DNA from: Sabellastarte sp. h YS-2021
Lineage: Eukaryota; Annelida; Polychaeta; Sabellida; Sabellidae
Direction of reading: 5' to 3'
Length of the DNA stretch: 64,000 bases
Assembly: GCA_964017235.1 (NCBI GenBank)
Contig: OZ024936.1
Location: 52,751,028 to 52,815,027 of the forward strand
Both the position numbers and the translations under genes were made by a program. This document shows positions 16,770 through 42,578 of this stretch, in pieces. The notes beneath the pieces are model-generated. The model saw only the letters and a program-made list of their open reading frames with translations. It had not been told where the DNA came from and ran no database searches. How positions within the stretch are numbered: position 1 is the first letter of the stretch; each line of letters begins with the position of its first letter.

Positions 16770-18248
16770 TCAGTCTTAATCAGCTTGTGAAGGAACACGT
16801 TTATGATATTACATTGCTGTTGCATCATCAATTAAAACACAGCATGTGTACACATGATGCATAAAAATTATTTTTCTGAATGTTAAGTTATATGTTATAT
16901 CTTAAATGTTTTCTTTTAGTTTAAAACAAGGGACCGGTCATAAATTTTCATTTTAAATCAATTTTACTTTTTATTTAGCAAGAGTCAGTCGAATGTTTGA
17001 CAGTTAAGAACGATGAATTTTGTTTTAAATGCTGATTCTAGAGTTCAGTGCAAATAGGTACATGTATTTAAGTACATTGAATAATAAATTTCTTGAAGAG
17101 TGGTTTTTTTTTTTGTTTTTGCAAAATCTTATCTAAGTTCTTCTATGCTATAGTGATAAGCAAGTTGATTGTTGAAAGTGCAAACTCTTCACAGTTTAAC
17201 AGGGGGGTTTCAGTGCTGTCATAAAATAGAAAACTTTGGATAATGCTGGCCAACTGAATACCACCATAACTGATTGAGGGCACAGTTTCCTTCCATTTAT
17301 TTGTTATTGTCTCACATCTGTGAGACTTAAGAAATTAGTCTATAGACTCATTGTAATGTTCCTCTCCACGGAAATCTTTAGTAAAAGGCGAAAGATTTAT
17401 ACGTGGTTTGAAGAGAAACCAGAGTTAGCTGTTCAGTCTGATCGAGGGTATTTGTACTCACAACGCCTGGTATATATTATGGGAGTAATGGTTTGAATAA
17501 AATGATTACATTCGCTAATTTTTATTTATTATATTTTGTATAAATTCAATATTTCATAGTTTATTAATATTGCATAGGAGGAACTGCATTAACTAACTAA
17601 ACGGGTATAGGGCAAACTTTTTATTTGCATAATAATCTGTCGACATCTCAAAGTATTTGAAAAAAATAAATGAGAATACTGAAAACTAAATGATTATTTC
17701 GTTACTCCAAGGTTGCACGGATGTGATGAATATATTTGTGCAGAGCAAAACATGCAGTGTGAGATCCCAATAATTGAATGAGAATGAACAATTTTTTTTT
17801 TTTTTTTTGTCAGAAAATTTTCGAATATACTTTCTGCTGAGGCTTTTTTCAGTAAAATGGACACTGTTTACATGAATAATCACCAATTAATCAGTTTGAG
17901 AAGTAACAAATGTTCAAAATTCGTGCCTTTTGTGCTTGTTAAAAAGTTCAAAAGTAACTGATCCGATTATGTGTCCAGGTTTGCGTCCGAGAGAGCAAGT
18001 CTGATAGAAGCTTTTTTTTTTTAAATCATTAACCTGTAATCTGTAAATATGCATTTAGGAATGCGTTAGCCTTGCTCAAGGCTCGAGCATCTTTGTAAAT
18101 AGTTCAATTTGTACAATAAACTTTTAGTTTGTGTACTCTTATATATATATAGTTTTTTTACCTCAGCATACCGTAAATACAGTCTAGTGAATTTACATCA
18201 CATAGTGTATATGAGCGATATAAGAATACCTAGCCTTTATGAACATGT
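16770..18248. other. Intergenic, upstream of paralogue A
   Basis: AT-rich, without a supportable ORF, with poly-T runs near 17,105, 17,790 and 18,010. No second promoter was recognised. Confidence 0.5.
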
Positions 18249-34376: not shown

Positions 34377-35190
34377 CTAAATTCTGTCCATTTGCCAAGG
34401 GACCTGCCCATCAGTCATGAGATAATCCCTCAGAATATTCCTCTGCATCTTTGCTACCTCTATTTTGTACCTCAAATCAGAGTGCTTGAAAATCTGAGCA
34501 TCGGAGCTCCATACATCAGGGTCAGGAGAACAATAGAATGAAAGCCCTTGTAGTTGTGGTAGAGGCTGCCACCCCTTTGTGGACATCTGATTGGAATGTG
34601 CTTTCCATCCAGGGCACTCAGGGCATCTGGGATGTTCCACCTCCGATGGAAAACAGACTCGACCTCCAACCAGTCTTCTGGGCTTGTGGGGCATGTCATC
34701 ACCTCATCTCGATAGGCCCTGATGATAGTGTTGCAGACCTCAGGCACATACTTATTGATGGTCGACCTTGCCACCCTGAAAGCATACTGCAGGGTTGGGT
34801 AGTTGTCTCCACTGGCCAGGTGTCTTAGGGTTACTGCCAACTTTAGTCCTGGACTCAGGGGCTCTCTCATCCAGGTCCTCTCCCTCTGGATCTCAGGGCC
34901 GAGTCTCCAGTTCTTGAAAGAGCTCGGATGGCATCTGGATGAAGTTTTTGGTATGCCATAGTGTCATCTAACTCGAGCCTTGGCATCAGTCTGGTGTACT
35001 GACCCTCTTCTTCATGCTCTGCCTGGGCTAGCCATGGCCTGACCCAATATCTTCTGTGTCTTTGTTGTCTTCCTTGCAGACCCCATCTCCTTCTCAGCCT
35101 GTCTATCATAGCTGTAATGATGACTAACTGTCTCTCCATTTGTAATATTAAGAGTTGAAGTTGTATAAGATTTCTGTCCTGTCTGTTCAT
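34377..35190 (-). pseudogene. Harbinger DDE transposase, frameshifted and internally deleted
   Basis: On the minus strand: N-terminal MNRQDRNLIQLQLLILQMER, one frameshift near 34,955 (one extra A in a run), then LASGDNYPTLQYAFRVARST, then the first catalytic block ALDGKHIPIRCP followed by GSLYHNYKGFHSIVLL. The middle is lost, and the reading resumes in another frame as SSDAQIFKHSDLRYKIE, then KMQRNILRDYLM. The deleted part normally carries further fold and catalytic residues, so the enzyme is dead. Confidence 0.8.
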
Positions 35191-35715
35191 GTTTGCATCT
35201 AGATTCTATAGGCCTAGTGGCCTGATCTTTACCCCTTTTTATATCCATTGGGATCCAGGTATCCAGTGGTCACTAGCTCCCACCAGGACACCTTTAATGT
35301 TATCATAAAAATCCCTTATTGGTAAGCTGACATCCGCGAGACATCCGTGAGAAAAATAAAGATCCTTAAACCCCATTCGTGAGTGTCCGCAAGGTCCGTA
35401 TACCCATCTGGGGTGTCCTTGAGGCTTCCTGATGCATCCCTATGTTGCCCTGGCGAGTCCTGAGGTGCTTGAGCCACACTGCAGTTGGCCACGGACGTGT
35501 ATCCGGGGGTCATCCGCAAGGAACGTAACGCATCCCTAACATCCTTGGCATCCTTATCATCTGTAGAGTGATCCATGACGTGTCCATAAATCACTCACTT
35601 TTCAAACATTACCCCTCCCCAAACCCCACGATCTGCAAGAGATCCTTGGCAGTTACCATACATGGAACAGTGGCCTATATCCGTGGGGATCCGTGTATGT
35701 GTAACTGGCCCCTAA

Positions 35716-35900: not shown

Positions 35901-35915
35901 CCTCTTAGACATTTT
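35901..35915. repeat. LINE target-site duplication, copy at element 3' end
   Basis: CCTCTTAGACATTTT, identical to 42,564-42,578. Confidence 0.9.
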
Positions 35916-36127
35916 TTTTTAAATTTATTTTTAACTAGCATACAGTGATGGTGTAACAGGAAGTAAAATGAGACAGTAACATAAGCATTTCATAATAACA
36001 ATACTACAAAAACAGTATAACTAAATTTCTACACAAAGAACTTTACAGGACATGAAATATACTATTACATATTTATTTCATAACAGCAATCTACTAAGAC
36101 ATTCTATCAAGAACTGTTAAAAATTGT

Positions 36128-39100
36128 CTATAGCTTTGCCAGTAGAAAACCATACCTCTCTTGAAAAAGCAAGTGATTACCTTTATCTGATGCAATGCAT
36201 TCTTCAATTTTAAGTTTGTCTTTTAAGCAATACTGAAAATGTGTTAATGACAGTTCTTTCAAATCATCCCTTGACTGTTTAATATAATATTTACCAACAA
36301 CTGTAATAAAGTTTACCAAATAAAAAAGGGGCTCGCTCATGTTTATGAAACCCAGAAGGACCCCTAGGACTGTAAAATCGATTTTAATGTTAAGTTTACT
36401 TGATAGCCAAAGCTTTATTTCTTTCCAGAAAGTAGAAACCTTTTGACAATAGAAGAAGTGCTCTAGGTTATCAATATCTCTACACCTTGCACAATCTGAA
36501 GAGTCTTTGATACCCCATAAAAATAGTTTGTAGTTGCAGTTAAAGATTCGATGAAGTATTTTATATTGGAGAGAAATCAAATGAGAGTCTCTAGTAAGAT
36601 TATAGGTCAGATTATAGATGGATTTCCAATCAGCCTTTTCTAGGATTGGATAGTACTCTATCCATTTATTTTGGCTTTGGGGGATTTGATACAAACGGGT
36701 TATGTAATAGTTGTATACTTCTCGGCTTTTAATGTTGCCAAGCTTTTCAAGACACTGCCGAGGTAATGACCTTTGATGAGTTGAGACCTGTTTGATGTTT
36801 AGTAAACGTTTTTTGGAACAGACAGTACTAATTATTTGGTTATATCTCATATGATCAAATTGAATGCCATATTTTGCTTCCAGATCTGACTTTGACAGAA
36901 AATTTTCATCTTCTGAAACAAGATCTCTCACTTTAGACATACCAGTAGATATCCATTCAGTAAACTTATCTGATATGGGTTTCTTGTCGATTGTTAGTAG
37001 ATCATTATGAAATAAAGGTTCATCCAAAAACTCAGCAAAACTTGAAGGTTCAATCGCCACAAGATTACACCATACTGACAACAGATCCTTATAAAATGGG
37101 GTTTTGATGTGACACGTTGTGTTTTTAAAAGTTCGTTTTCTTAATAGTTCTTCGGTACAAAGCCCCATTAGGTTCTGTGAGAGTATTTTCCAATTTGCAT
37201 CTATACCATTACAAAATCTTTTTAAAAACATTATTTTTGATGCATTGATAAATTCCGAGATTGAAACCACACTCATTCCACCTTGTTCTATTGGTTGGAT
37301 TAAGGTAATTTTCGAGGGGAGAGGTTTCTTCTGATTCCATATAAAGTTGAAAAGCATTTCATCTAAAAGTTTTAACATGTTTTTGCTAAAGGGGATGGCT
37401 GAGACAAGTTGTACAATATGAGGTAAAACAAATGATTTTATCACTGTTACTTTACCTTTTAATGTTAGGCGCCTCAATGACCAGGAGTTTAGAATGCTTT
37501 TGATAATCGAAATTTTGTCATTCTTGTTTAAATTTATCATCTCTTCATTGTCCAGAGAGAACCATGTTCCCAGGGTTTTAAATGGCCTGTTTATCCATTT
37601 AATTCCCAATGACAAATTATGCTCTAGAGTCCCATCATTTTGAATAATTATTGCCTCAGTCTTCCCTTTATTTAATTTGAGACCCGCATATCGGTAAAAC
37701 TCTTCAAACATCCTAAGAGAGTGCCTAACAGAAGAGTTGTCTGTAAGAAACAAAGTCATGTCATCTGCCAGCTGACAAAGCTTTATACATTTTTCATTGA
37801 CTTTAAGGCCTATAATATGAGGGGACATCCAAATTATGTTCGCTATTATTTCAGCAGGCAGTAGAAATAACAAGGCACTGATTGGACAGCCTTGTCTGAT
37901 CCCTCTAAAGAGTTTGAAGAATTGCGACATATAACCATTATTGGTTACACAGCTTTCAATGTCAGTGTAAAGGACAGACATCCATCTTCGAAAGTTTGGA
38001 CCAAAACCAAAATGTGTCAAGCATTTTTGTAGAAAATTCCAGTTTATAGTATCAAATGCTTTTTCGAAGTATGCTAAGAGTATGATACAAGGTTGCAGTG
38101 TATGTTTACAATAATCAATTACATCGGCTATTAATCTAGTATTTTCACCAATAAAGTGGTCTTTCATATACCCAATTTGATCGGGATTAACGATTTTTGT
38201 TAATGTTACCCTTAATCTGTTTGCGAGTAGTTTTGCTAAGATTTTGTAATCACTATTAAGCAGCGATAAAGGACGCCATGACTTCAAGTCTGTTAGATCT
38301 TTATCCTTTTTTGGAATCAAAATAATTGTACCTTGTTTTTGGCTTGGTGTCAAATGACCAGAATCAAAGGATTTACTGTAACTGTTCACTAATATGTCAC
38401 AGATATCTACCCAGAAAGTTTTATAAAACTCGATAGGAATACCATCAGGTCCCGGACTCTTATTATTTTTCAGGTCATTAATAGCCTTGAAAACCTCTTC
38501 TTTTGTAATTGCTTGGTCACAATGTTCTTTCATATCATTTGATACTAACGGCGCGGTGATACTATTGAAATATTCTTCATATTCAAATACATTTGGAATT
38601 TGATTAGATTCACTTGAATATAAATTTTTATAGAAATTTGCTTGAGTGTTTAGTATTTCCTTGGGGTCGTTAATTCTATGCCCACCCACATTCAAAGACC
38701 GTATATGTTTAATATTATGGTTTCTTTTTTCCAGATTTAGAAAGTATCTTGTTGGTCTTTCATACTCATCAACCAGCCTACACCTTGAGCGAATTATACA
38801 TCCCGCTGACTTGGTGTCATATATTTCTTCTATCTTGTGTTTAATAAGATTTGACTCCTCAAACAAAGAGGGACACGGACTGAGGGTAATCTTGTATTCC
38901 AAGTCCTCTAACTGCTCTGTTAGCTTTTCAAGAAGTTTTTCCGACTGTTTTTTCTTTTTTATGGAATAGGTTATAGATTCAGTACGTATCCTGCATTTAA
39001 CGTAATCCCATGCAATGTCTTTATTTGACAAGTTTATAAGGTCAGTTTTTGCATGTTTAATTGTGCTGCTTAGTAGTGATATATATTCATTATCAGACAA

Positions 39101-39874
39101 TAGACTTGTATTCATCTTCCACCAGCCTCTACCTTGCTTTGCAACACCTTCCAACCACAGAGACAATTTTAACAGGCTGTGGTCAGATTTAATGCTTGGT
39201 AAAATTTCAACCGATTTAGTTGTAAAACCTAAGTGACGTGAAATTAAAAAGTAATTGATCCGTGTTTGCTTAATACCAAATCTTGTTTTCTCACGTCTTG
39301 TATATTGTTTTGTAGAAGGATGTCGTATCCTCCAAATATCGGCAATATCTAAAAGTTCGTGTAATTGTGTCAATGAATTTCTAAAAGAAACAGATCGAGT
39401 TGTACCATCACATACATCATCTAGACAAATGTTGAAATCTCCACCTATTATTATGTTTGAACCAGCATAACACTCCAGTTGTTTTAGCATATATTCTCCA
39501 AAACGTTTTTGGTCACCCAATTTATCTATTGTTGGAGCATAAATATTAGATATCACATATCTCTGATCATAAATGATGCAGTCAAGAAGTATGAACCGTC
39601 CCATACTGTCTTTCACAATATCAGAAATGGTTATTGGCAAATCCTTCGAAATTAAAATGGCAACACCACGGGCATTTGATTCTCCATGTGAAAAAATCAC
39701 CCTACCATCCCAGTATTGCAGCCAAAGATGTTCTGCATTTGACACTAAGTGGCATTCTTGAAGCAAGAATAACCCCTTACCCTTTGACTTAAGCCATAGA
39801 AAAACTGCGCATAATTTTTTCCTATCTCCCAGTCCTCTGGTGTTAAAACTAAAAATGTTTAGTATGTCAGGCAT
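36128..39874 (-). CDS. LINE ORF2: endonuclease-reverse transcriptase, 1,248 codons
   Basis: The N-terminal apurinic-type endonuclease spans about residues 1-240: N11, E40, NIYAP (110-114), GGDFN (144-148), SDH (230-232). The RT spans about 455-760: SPGPDGIP, IPKK, SWRPLSLLN, EKAFDTINW, RGIRQGCPISALLF, QLADD. A late C-x2-C...H...C motif is in CARCRDIDNLEHFFYC. The overall pattern and DVIDY/EKAFDTINW text fit the Tx1 branch of L1 elements. There is no stop codon across the reading frame. Two key positions are changed: the usual Asp of the endonuclease RID motif is Asn (TRINYFL, residue 207), and the first catalytic Asp of the RT (normally D before FEKAFD) is Tyr (602). The product is predicted to be inactive. 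Confidence 0.93.
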   Translation of the reverse strand: MPDILNIFSFNTRGLGDRKKLCAVFLWLKSKGKGLFLLQECHLVSNAEHLWLQYWDGRVIFSHGESNARGVAILISKDLPITISDIVKDSMGRFILLDCIIYDQRYVISNIYAPTIDKLGDQKRFGEYMLKQLECYAGSNIIIGGDFNICLDDVCDGTTRSVSFRNSLTQLHELLDIADIWRIRHPSTKQYTRREKTRFGIKQTRINYFLISRHLGFTTKSVEILPSIKSDHSLLKLSLWLEGVAKQGRGWWKMNTSLLSDNEYISLLSSTIKHAKTDLINLSNKDIAWDYVKCRIRTESITYSIKKKKQSEKLLEKLTEQLEDLEYKITLSPCPSLFEESNLIKHKIEEIYDTKSAGCIIRSRCRLVDEYERPTRYFLNLEKRNHNIKHIRSLNVGGHRINDPKEILNTQANFYKNLYSSESNQIPNVFEYEEYFNSITAPLVSNDMKEHCDQAITKEEVFKAINDLKNNKSPGPDGIPIEFYKTFWVDICDILVNSYSKSFDSGHLTPSQKQGTIILIPKKDKDLTDLKSWRPLSLLNSDYKILAKLLANRLRVTLTKIVNPDQIGYMKDHFIGENTRLIADVIDYCKHTLQPCIILLAYFEKAFDTINWNFLQKCLTHFGFGPNFRRWMSVLYTDIESCVTNNGYMSQFFKLFRGIRQGCPISALLFLLPAEIIANIIWMSPHIIGLKVNEKCIKLCQLADDMTLFLTDNSSVRHSLRMFEEFYRYAGLKLNKGKTEAIIIQNDGTLEHNLSLGIKWINRPFKTLGTWFSLDNEEMINLNKNDKISIIKSILNSWSLRRLTLKGKVTVIKSFVLPHIVQLVSAIPFSKNMLKLLDEMLFNFIWNQKKPLPSKITLIQPIEQGGMSVVSISEFINASKIMFLKRFCNGIDANWKILSQNLMGLCTEELLRKRTFKNTTCHIKTPFYKDLLSVWCNLVAIEPSSFAEFLDEPLFHNDLLTIDKKPISDKFTEWISTGMSKVRDLVSEDENFLSKSDLEAKYGIQFDHMRYNQIISTVCSKKRLLNIKQVSTHQRSLPRQCLEKLGNIKSREVYNYYITRLYQIPQSQNKWIEYYPILEKADWKSIYNLTYNLTRDSHLISLQYKILHRIFNCNYKLFLWGIKDSSDCARCRDIDNLEHFFYCQKVSTFWKEIKLWLSSKLNIKIDFTVLGVLLGFINMSEPLFYLVNFITVVGKYYIKQSRDDLKELSLTHFQYCLKDKLKIEECIASDKGNHLLFQERYGFLLAKL

Positions 39875-39899
39875 TCAGTACTAAATAGGTACAAACCTA

Positions 39900-42050
39900 C
39901 AATGTTCACAGAAATATAACAATCGCACTCAGCTTCACAGTGACATAAACAATATTCTCCATGAGCAACAAGAGGCACAAACAAAATACATGTGAAAATT
40001 TGACAAAGCACTAGCAAAGGCATATAATAAATAGTTATTGCTGTATTCTCAAATAAAACACTTATGTTTAGCATAAATATCAACAGAAATGAAACCATAT
40101 GTACAGTTTGATATATATCTATACAGTAAAATAGTGATCCGCTGGATCTGTGAGCGTATTTATTATTTATTTTGTTAACTCTAAAGTAGTATGTATTAAC
40201 ATTTTGGTGAATTGATACTATAGTAAAGGCCTTAGTATTGAAAGTTGCAATAAACTAAGCACATGATGGATGTTTTTGTTTAGGAATACAGAAAGTAGAC
40301 ATCATGTCAAGATTTAAAGGCTACTAGTAAAGAAACTTTAGGTTAAACAAGATGACTTTAATTTGTTCAATAATCAACATAGTGATCATACATATATTTA
40401 GTAATCATTATCATAACTATCGCTTTCATTGATATCTAGAAGGACCATTAACAAGTTGGGAACGATAATGTATTATTAAATATATATATTAAAAAAGAAA
40501 AAACATATATTTAGTAATCATTGTCATAACTACCGCTTTCAATGATACTAGATAGATCAATCACAATATTGTAAAGAGTCTCAAACATTAATTTTATGGT
40601 GTCATATTTTATAATTCGATGTATACATATACAGTATTGTGAAGAATTCTAAGATAAAACGAAATGATTTTTGTTCAATAATCAACATATCTATTTTGTA
40701 TTTTGACTATCATTTGGACTAATTATTTACTACAAAATCCAGAAAGTCACAGTACTAAATATATTAAGGCATCTGAAATAATTGGCCAACTCTGCAACAG
40801 AATATCTAAGAACATGATATAATTAAATGTATGTCTATACACATAGATATATGTGTACATACACACACATACATATACTAGTATACAAAGACATATATTT
40901 AGTAATCATTATCATAACTATTGCTTTCATTGTTACCTAGATGGACCATTCACAAGCAGAGAACAATGTTGTAAGGAGTTTCATACATTGATTTTATACA
41001 GTATTGCGAAGAGTTCTAAGGTAAAACAAAATGGTCTTATGTTCAAAAATCAACGTAGTATTTTTACATTTTTGCCATCATTTGGACTAAATATTTCTTA
41101 TATAACCAAAAAGCCACAGTAGTTGATATATGAAAACGTCTGAAATAATCAGCCAACCCTTTAAGAGAGTATTTAAGAATACTAAAATAATTTTTATTTG
41201 CTATATACCCAAAAAGCCACGGTAGTAGATATATGAAAGTACATGAAATAATCAGCCACCACTTTAATAGAGTATTTAAGAATACAATATTATTACATAT
41301 AATATTAAACATATATTTAACAGTCATTATCATAATTACCACTTTCATTAACACCTAGATGGAACCATGTACTTGTTGTGTAATGGGAGCAGTATTATAT
41401 GGAGTTTGACCCATCATATCTGTAGCTGTATTAAATACCTATATATACATATACATGAAGTCATAAAGTGTCTAACCATTTCCAACAAAATTTTCATTAG
41501 TATCTAAATGAAGCATTTACATGTAAGCAGCAGTATCGTAGGGAGTTTAACTCATTACTTTTAAAGCTTCATAGCTTAAAAATTATAGTTTATAATGTAT
41601 GCATATACATTACTGTAAAGAGTTCAACACATTTTAGTGTAGCTTCAAGACCTATAATACAACACATTTAAGTGTCTATTTTTAAAAGTGTATAAACCTT
41701 GCAAAACCCAAAACAGGCCATGTTACATGTAAGCAGCAGTATTACAAGGAGTTTAACACATTTTTTTAAAGTTTCATAGCTTAAAATTCAAAGTTTATAA
41801 TGAACACATATACACTATTGTAAAGAGTTCAACACATCATAATATAGCTTCGAGCCCAATAATTCAGCACCATTAAGTGTCAGTTTTTAAAAATATATAA
41901 ACCTTTGCAAAAACCAAAGCAGGCCATGTTACCTTATTGTAAAGAGTTCAACACATTGTAATGTAATGTACCTTCAAAATCTATAATGCAACACTTTTAA
42001 GTATCTTTTTTCTTAAATATATAAAAACTTGCAAAATACCAGAAGAGGTC
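39900..42050. repeat. Degenerate internal tandem repeats between LINE ORFs
   Basis: Units of roughly 110-400 bp with recurring blocks: acatatatttagtaatcatt (about 40,390, 40,504, 40,891 and, diverged, 41,308), attgtaaagagttcaacac (41,610, 41,817, 41,937) and caggccatgtta (41,715, 41,920). AT-rich, no coding. A (ca)/(ta) tract lies at 40,850-40,875. Confidence 0.7.
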
Positions 42051-42054
42051 ATGT

Positions 42055-42563
42055 TCATTTTGCTAGTAAGGTGTCTCTAACTTTCATCAAAGCGTATCCC
42101 AACTTGTTTTTACCACGCCAAGCTTTTTTGCACCACAAGTTTGGATTAAACAAGTCTAGCCCAACCCCAAAAACAGTGTCATTAGGGTTTGCCTCTATAA
42201 TAATGCCATTCCCAGTTTTTTCCAGCCTGGCTAGAAGTTCCGGATTTTGTTCAAACTTGGCTGATAAACCTTCAAACAGGCATTCATCCATCTGCTTATT
42301 CCACTTATGTTGATCAAAGTTCTTAACTGATCGACCAAGGCGCTTAATATTCTCAGGGTCATTGTCCACCATGATTTTGGCACTTGATTCACTGTCTCCA
42401 AAGAATGTGGCCTTGCTATACATGAGGAATTGTTCCATACTGCTAAACTGTGTCCCTTTTACAGTAAATGAACTATTGTAGTGGTTCGATAGTTTACTGA
42501 AGCATCGAAAAAAAGCGGTTGTACCATCTTTGGAGGGGGTGAAAAGCTTATCAAGACTCACAT
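42055..42563 (-). CDS. NADAR-domain ORF (LINE ORF1 or its C-terminal part)
   Basis: A 168-codon reading frame that is almost entirely a NADAR (YbiA-like) domain: LSNHY (24-28), E43 and K50 in SSMEQFLMYSK, DPENIKRLGR, W87, LSAKFEQN (99-106), TGNGIIIEA (116-124), FGVG (131-134, usually WGxG), AWRGKNKLGYALM, VRDTLL. NADAR proteins are glycosidases that remove ADP-ribose attached to guanine, and some are antitoxins to DarT-type toxins. No in-frame ATG precedes the domain. The frame opens with GTG at the 5' end of the LINE and has a stop (TAA) just outside it, so the start was probably lost by 5' truncation. The stop codon is followed by the LINE's internal repeats. It lies inside the 15-bp duplication. 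The frame is intact. Confidence 0.88.
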
Positions 42564-42578
42564 CCTCTTAGACATTTT
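42564..42578. repeat. LINE target-site duplication, copy at element 5' end
   Basis: CCTCTTAGACATTTT, identical to 35,901-35,915. The next bases, ATTGG, give the TTTT/A nick context. Confidence 0.9.

Follow-up and report, generated by a model that had tools for sequence, protein, structure and literature searches.

A 5′-truncated, probably inactive L1/Tx1-group retrotransposon and its predicted ORF1-encoded NADAR domain

Introduction

A 64-kb stretch of contig OZ024936.1, hereafter the window, carries on its minus strand an open reading frame (ORF) for a NADAR domain upstream of the endonuclease and reverse transcriptase ORF of a long interspersed nuclear element (LINE). This arrangement raises the question of how a NADAR domain came to lie in a retrotransposon and what it might do there. 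We conclude that the element is probably a 5′-truncated, inactive-looking copy of an L1/Tx1-group LINE whose ORF1 protein (ORF1p) ends in a NADAR domain. In the full reading that we prefer, with a probability of about 0.6, this domain would clear ADP-ribose from guanine in the RNA or complementary DNA (cDNA) of the element.

Structure of the insertion

The 15-mer CCTCTTAGACATTTT occurs as exactly two copies when both strands of the window are searched, and both copies fit the ends of the element (Table 1). The NADAR frame and ORF2 are enclosed between them, so a single retrotransposition event brought both. An A-rich tail precedes the 3′ copy, and TTTT/A, the preference of the L1 endonuclease, is the target context read on the opposite strand. 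The original prediction thus holds in two respects, namely the perfect 15-bp target duplication in this context and the joint insertion of NADAR with an L1/Tx1-type LINE. The alternative that two separate insertions supplied the two 15-mers is without support, since just two copies are present and they match both ends. The element is approximately 6.65 kb long, and tblastn and blastn at the cut-offs used detected no further copy of it in the window.

Table 1. Features of the LINE insertion, listed from its 5′ to its 3′ end.
Feature	Position	Strand	Basis
Target-site duplication, 5′ copy (AAAATGTCTAAGAGG in element orientation)	42564..42578	-	Exact 15-mer, two occurrences in window
C-terminal NADAR of 5′-truncated L1-type ORF1, 170 codons and stop (predicted)	42055..42567	-	Pfam NADAR 1.4e-40; 97% identity to P0001 residues 154-323
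ORF1-ORF2 spacer, 28% GC, 62% diverged direct repeats	39875..42054	-	Repeat analysis
ORF2, APE-type endonuclease and reverse transcriptase, 1248 aa, open, D207N and D602Y	36128..39874	-	Pfam, profile, alignment
3′ untranslated region and A-rich tail; exact end uncertain by at most 4 nt (duplication begins with A's)	35916..36127	-	Sequence
Target-site duplication, 3′ copy	35901..35915	-	Exact 15-mer

The stop-free NADAR frame can be placed precisely by its nearest relative, P0001 (323 aa, 8 member sequences), which matches all 170 residues and extends N-terminally by a further 153. Homology to P0001 starts at codon 42567-42565, and the preceding codon is a stop in the window, unlike in P0001. 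The homologous part opens with the four nucleotides (GAGG) in which the target duplication ends, and this overlap indicates microhomology at the junction, as is usual in 5′-truncated L1 copies. The cut falls at the junction between the C-terminal domain (CTD) and NADAR, so that the coiled coil, the RNA-recognition motif (RRM) and the CTD are lost. The frame opens at the insertion boundary because the truncation left essentially just NADAR; the proposal that a cut inside a larger ORF1 had opened it is borne out by P0001 and the other relatives. On this sequence evidence, the NADAR frame is almost certainly the remnant of the C-terminal domain of an L1-type ORF1p.

Domain architecture of the ORF1 relatives

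The NADAR query gave 36 matches among 222 candidates. Eleven are LINE-type by alignment (P0001-P0010 and P0018, with P0002, P0005, P0006 and P0018 partial), and the remaining 25 are mostly free-standing NADARs, some of them named as bacterial. The nearest relatives, P0001 and P0002, both carry ORF1 sequence N-terminal to NADAR. In full-length relatives of 394-451 aa the order is coiled coil, L1-type RRM, L1-type CTD and C-terminal NADAR, which supplies the larger N-terminus that had been expected. The stretch after the coiled coil in the longer relatives is of the kind FQRKNNLRIVGL...HRLG...ARFANFKDK, and a CTD-like part and NADAR follow.

The RRM/CTD part has no clear Pfam family, but fold comparison and a PDB profile do assign it. 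A structure model of the relative P0004 matches human ORF1p (2yko, 2ykp and 2ykq) as well as the oomycete NADAR 8bau, and the ORF1 sequence profile matches human LINE-1 ORF1p at 1.9e-7. By modelled fold and profile, an L1-type ORF1p with coiled coil, RRM and CTD is therefore present in the relatives. Human LINE-1 shares these three parts but has no NADAR, unlike the relatives here; human ORF1p ends after the CTD.

A search with an ORF1 profile scored a capped set of 7995 candidates, and Pfam NADAR is present in 24 of the 27 matches listed, a proportion from which the share of relatives without NADAR cannot be read, because the profile was built from seven long relatives with NADAR included and so favours NADAR-bearing ORF1s. 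The three exceptions are P0053, which breaks off within NADAR, P0054, which stops ahead of it, and P0055, which ends past the CTD-like part. Several clusters have many member sequences (25 in P0009, 17 in P0050, 12 in P0007 and 11 in P0037); such numbers are in keeping with repeats, although each cluster names a single contig and so gives no proof of copy number. The ORF1 alignment, run against prokaryote genomes, gave 29 loci of 77 pattern matches, none of which touches the ORF1 core; all 29 match the NADAR end only (first matched query residue at least 248). Judging from the aligned sequences, NADAR in ORF1 is a recurring trait of related elements. As a separate observation, P0011 (347 aa), one of the 25 matches that are not LINE-type, joins a NADAR to a type I restriction specificity domain (Methylase_S), which is either a real fusion or a gene-prediction join.

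Active site of the NADAR domain

The window frame has the NADAR fold by the Pfam criterion (139.6 bits, E 1.4e-40), and this E value rules out a chance open frame. Glu45 and Lys52 of the window frame align to 8bau, and Glu125 aligns to both 8bau and Escherichia coli YbiA, the YbiA alignment being unclean at Lys52. In a 31-row alignment, the positions matching Glu88 and Lys95 of the E. coli C7 NADAR are glutamate and lysine in every row with letters (29/29 and 29/29), and the superfamily glutamate of the last strand is retained in 26/26. Glu88 and Lys95 have catalytic roles in the C7 enzyme according to the relevant part of PMC11543638, where the E88A substitution by itself made little difference in vitro. 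The last-strand glutamate is the YbiA-type criterion, as opposed to aspartate in BC4488 and histidine in phage, in the account given in PMC11125620; in the C7 NADAR itself this glutamate is dispensable and an aspartate serves instead (PMC11543638, in the part concerned). By the last-strand criterion, the aligned LINE NADARs are YbiA-type.

Among 20 nearly complete rows, mean pairwise identity is highest in NADAR (0.45), followed by the RRM (0.42), the CTD (0.36) and the coiled coil (0.25). The Glu/Lys/Glu set is kept in every row with letters, down to approximately 28-31% identity to P0004. The LINE NADAR is, in our estimate, probably an active guanine-ADP-ribose hydrolase.

ORF2 and the ORF1-ORF2 spacer

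ORF2 matches Exo_endo_phos (2.6e-7) and RVT_1 (3.4e-32) in Pfam. A profile of the window ORF2 and ten relatives, taken from the best 120 of 429 matches, was compared with solved structures that included L1 and R2. The match to human LINE-1 ORF2p (8uw3) is full-length, at 7.1e-188, and the best value for an R2 protein is 6.1e-43. The profile places the element in the L1/Tx1 group, Tx1 and L1 sensu stricto not being separated by a comparison set that contains no Tx1 reference sequences.

Of 152 columns that are otherwise invariant, the window ORF2 departs from 8, an unremarkable figure for this set: the eight nearer relatives have 2-8 such departures each, and the two most distant relatives have 18 and 23. 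Among the 8 substitutions, D207N in the endonuclease and D602Y in motif A of the reverse transcriptase each replace an aspartate that is present in 10/10 aligned relatives and is catalytic in human L1. The window copy is for this reason probably inactive itself; ORF2 is open over its 1248 codons, yet the copy looks dead.

NADAR stop and ORF2 start are separated by a spacer of 2180 bp. The repeats that fill 62% of it begin directly after the NADAR stop codon and comprise 205-bp, 103-bp and shorter units; such repeats are absent from 20 first-order Markov resamples and from ORF2.

Inheritance of the NADAR domain

We compared NADAR distances with those of the RRM and CTD across the relatives. The correlation is high (r 0.861) and was attained by 0 of 5000 permutations, for which one old fusion of NADAR to ORF1 is the simplest reading; the domain would have been inherited together with the ORF1 core. 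Some deeper joins differ between the NADAR-only tree and the RRM and CTD tree (P0001, P0038, P0045 and P0048), with weak support.

Trees with free NADARs were built after five of the 31 ORF1 rows had been dropped as too short (P0018, P0050, P0053, P0054 and P0055). In a 53-row tree that includes the E. coli YbiA fragment, 26 LINE rows and 25 free proteins are split at 98/89; YbiA, however, joins the LINE rows, as a long branch beside P0052. A tree constrained to keep all LINE rows apart from the other 27 loses 11.4 log-likelihood units, with an approximately unbiased test p value (p-AU) of 0.099; with P0052 and P0048 taken out, two changes are needed on the quick tree, and p-AU is 0.379. These YbiA-inclusive trees neither reject nor show a single LINE clade, and the LINE NADARs do not appear cleanly as one group.

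YbiA was dropped only after its LINE-side placement had been seen, and in the resulting 58-row tree a branch with 97/94 support separates the 26 LINE NADARs from 32 free ones. This tree comprises the 26 LINE rows, 22 of the 29 prokaryote loci (L017, L019, L023-L026 and L028 being left out), 9 of the 25 free proteins and an oomycete fragment; 31 of the free NADARs come from prokaryote or unnamed records and one from the oomycete. Two loci, L007 (one stop) and L029 (ten stops, a length that is not a multiple of three and probably out of frame), entered with X at the stops. A single clade of LINE-linked NADARs, the question for which the original prediction proposed a tree, is thus supported without YbiA and neither rejected nor shown with it. 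Animal host NADARs are in none of the trees.

Proposed role and alternative explanations

In the reading that we prefer, ORF1p would oligomerise on the RNA of its element through the coiled coil, RRM and CTD, as human L1 ORF1p does; the human protein coats the element's RNA and is a trimer in the structure 2yko. A C-terminal NADAR on such an oligomer would place many active sites on the ribonucleoprotein particle (RNP), where they could strip ADP-ribose from guanines of the element's RNA or cDNA. If left in place, the modification would block reverse transcription or mark the RNP. The most likely writers would be host ADP-ribosyltransferases, for example guanine-N2 enzymes of the CARP-1/pierisin type known from clams. 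The demonstrated activity of NADAR is the removal of ADP-ribose from guanine in DNA, in the part of PMC11543638 that deals with it. Guanine-N2 ADP-ribosylating activity on DNA is reported for six edible clams, including Meretrix lamarckii (CARP-1), Ruditapes philippinarum and Corbicula japonica, in the passage concerned of PMC11209040. PARP13/ZAP restricts human L1, and its zinc finger domain suffices according to a section heading of PMC4441479. Taken together, RNA coating by ORF1p, the activity of NADAR, the clam writers and restriction by ZAP favour removal of ADP-ribose from the RNA or cDNA of the element. The claim that NADAR protects the element's own nucleic acid is, by itself, tentative, with chances somewhat below even.

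The best surviving alternative, although unlikely, is that NADAR is not a hydrolase and serves either as a binding module, with ADP-ribose, capped RNA ends or ADP-ribosylated proteins as ligands, or as a domain that helps to assemble the RNP. Here too an RNA-binding protein as carrier would be fitting, and nematode SNA-3 sets a precedent: its NADAR domains are required for spliced-leader trans-splicing and its partners include the cap-binding complex, as the relevant part of PMC9303266 reports. A pure binder, however, could lose the three active-site positions, which are kept in every row with letters, and mutations in SNA-3 at glycosidase-homologous residues also impaired its function (same source and part).

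Still less probable is a NADAR that acts on small molecules, as a riboflavin-intermediate N-glycosidase of the YbiA type, or on NAD-derived signals of the host, in place of the nucleic acid of the element. The fusion with an RNA-binding ORF1p points to a substrate bound in nucleic acid, and L1 ORF1p has cis-preference. The YbiA-type glutamate of the LINE NADARs would suit small substrates, as YbiA enzymes are N-glycosidases of riboflavin intermediates in the account of PMC9303266.

The one-off capture of a host NADAR gene by 5′ transduction or nested insertion into a LINE family without NADAR, which the original prediction had named as its refuting case, is very improbable, however unusual the 2.2-kb repetitive spacer: P0001, at 97% identity, has the ORF1 core N-terminal to NADAR and so contradicts capture, P0002 likewise carries ORF1 sequence, the closest relatives of the window NADAR are C-termini of L1-type ORF1 proteins and not free NADARs, 24 of the 27 matches listed for a profile that itself included NADAR bear the domain, and inspection by eye, with no systematic search, found no second target duplication or internal poly-A between NADAR and ORF2.

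Several points weigh against removal of guanine ADP-ribose by an ORF1p-borne NADAR, in addition to the bias of the ORF1 profile and the placement of YbiA described above. A NADAR-type ORF1 and such an ORF2 were not seen together on one contig outside the window, and three scans of viral contigs (IMG/VR), with ORF2 alone, the ORF1 alignment and the ORF2 alignment, gave zero relatives. Erasure of CARP-1 or pierisin products by NADAR is an assumption unconfirmed by experiment in the relevant part of PMC11543638, and some NADARs active in vitro gave E. coli cells no protection from DarT1 (PMC11125620, in the passage concerned). Finally, the writer and its eraser would be found in the same lineage if the host were a bivalve, and that host is a premise of the original prediction alone.

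Other features of the window

A full-length U5 spliceosomal RNA lies at 17309-17427 on the minus strand (Rfam RF00020, 89.7 bits). Overlapping frames at 34377-35205, also on the minus strand, resemble by eye a broken PIF/Harbinger (HARBI1-like) DDE transposase (LDGKHIPIRCP...NYKGFHSIVLL); two frames of this region gave zero Pfam matches at E 0.001. Four frames at three places in the window other than the LINE gave zero Pfam matches.

Relation to known systems and implications

NADAR as a component of a LINE ORF1 had been thought undescribed, but it is already in print. In the relevant part of PMC12477816 (Genome Biol 2025;26:320), NADARs of Ectocarpus Gypsy elements match ORF1 of several Crassostrea gigas Tx1 LINE families; the oyster ORF1 domains likewise look like members of the YbiA NADAR family, and the authors suggest a part in the processing of RNA intermediates. 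This report is the only one that our search of the open-access literature returned for Tx1, Crassostrea and NADAR, or for YbiA and retrotransposon. The novelty is therefore limited, and the account here is a fuller description of an element of a published kind. The oyster families (Repbase), which this comparison knows by description and not by sequence, resemble the window element as L1/Tx1-group LINEs with a YbiA-family NADAR in ORF1 and, on the premise of the original prediction, in having a bivalve host; they were published, in that part of the source, as a short mention of divergent hits, whereas domain order, active site and truncation are worked out here. What is new is the architecture, the conservation of the active site, the truncation point and a testable role in removing guanine ADP-ribose from the element's nucleic acid.

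The long terminal repeat Gypsy elements of Ectocarpus are likewise retroelements with a YbiA-family NADAR, there in Pol. Their domain is possibly a separate acquisition, blastp hits beyond Ectocarpus being almost exclusively bacterial in the same part of PMC12477816. Phytophthora nicotianae 8bau, E. coli YbiA (2b3w) and the DarT1-NADAR antitoxins stand alone or beside DarT, unlike the ORF1-fused LINE NADARs.

In this LINE family NADAR active-site residues are kept on an RNA-binding protein through large divergence, and the family shows that an L1-type ORF1p can keep an added C-terminal enzyme domain over long times. A more far-reaching and rather doubtful reading is that of an old animal LINE lineage with a built-in antidote, in which ORF1p-borne NADARs would erase guanine ADP-ribosylation by CARP-1-like or PARP-family enzymes of the host. 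The role of NADAR in animals and the purpose of the DNA-guanine ADP-ribosyltransferases of clams are standing questions, and this LINE family bears on both. An assay that compares retrotransposition of elements with an intact or a disabled NADAR active site, in the presence or absence of a guanine-specific writer, would address the two concretely. If the antidote reading were true, guanine ADP-ribosylation would be a genome defence against retrotransposons in molluscs.
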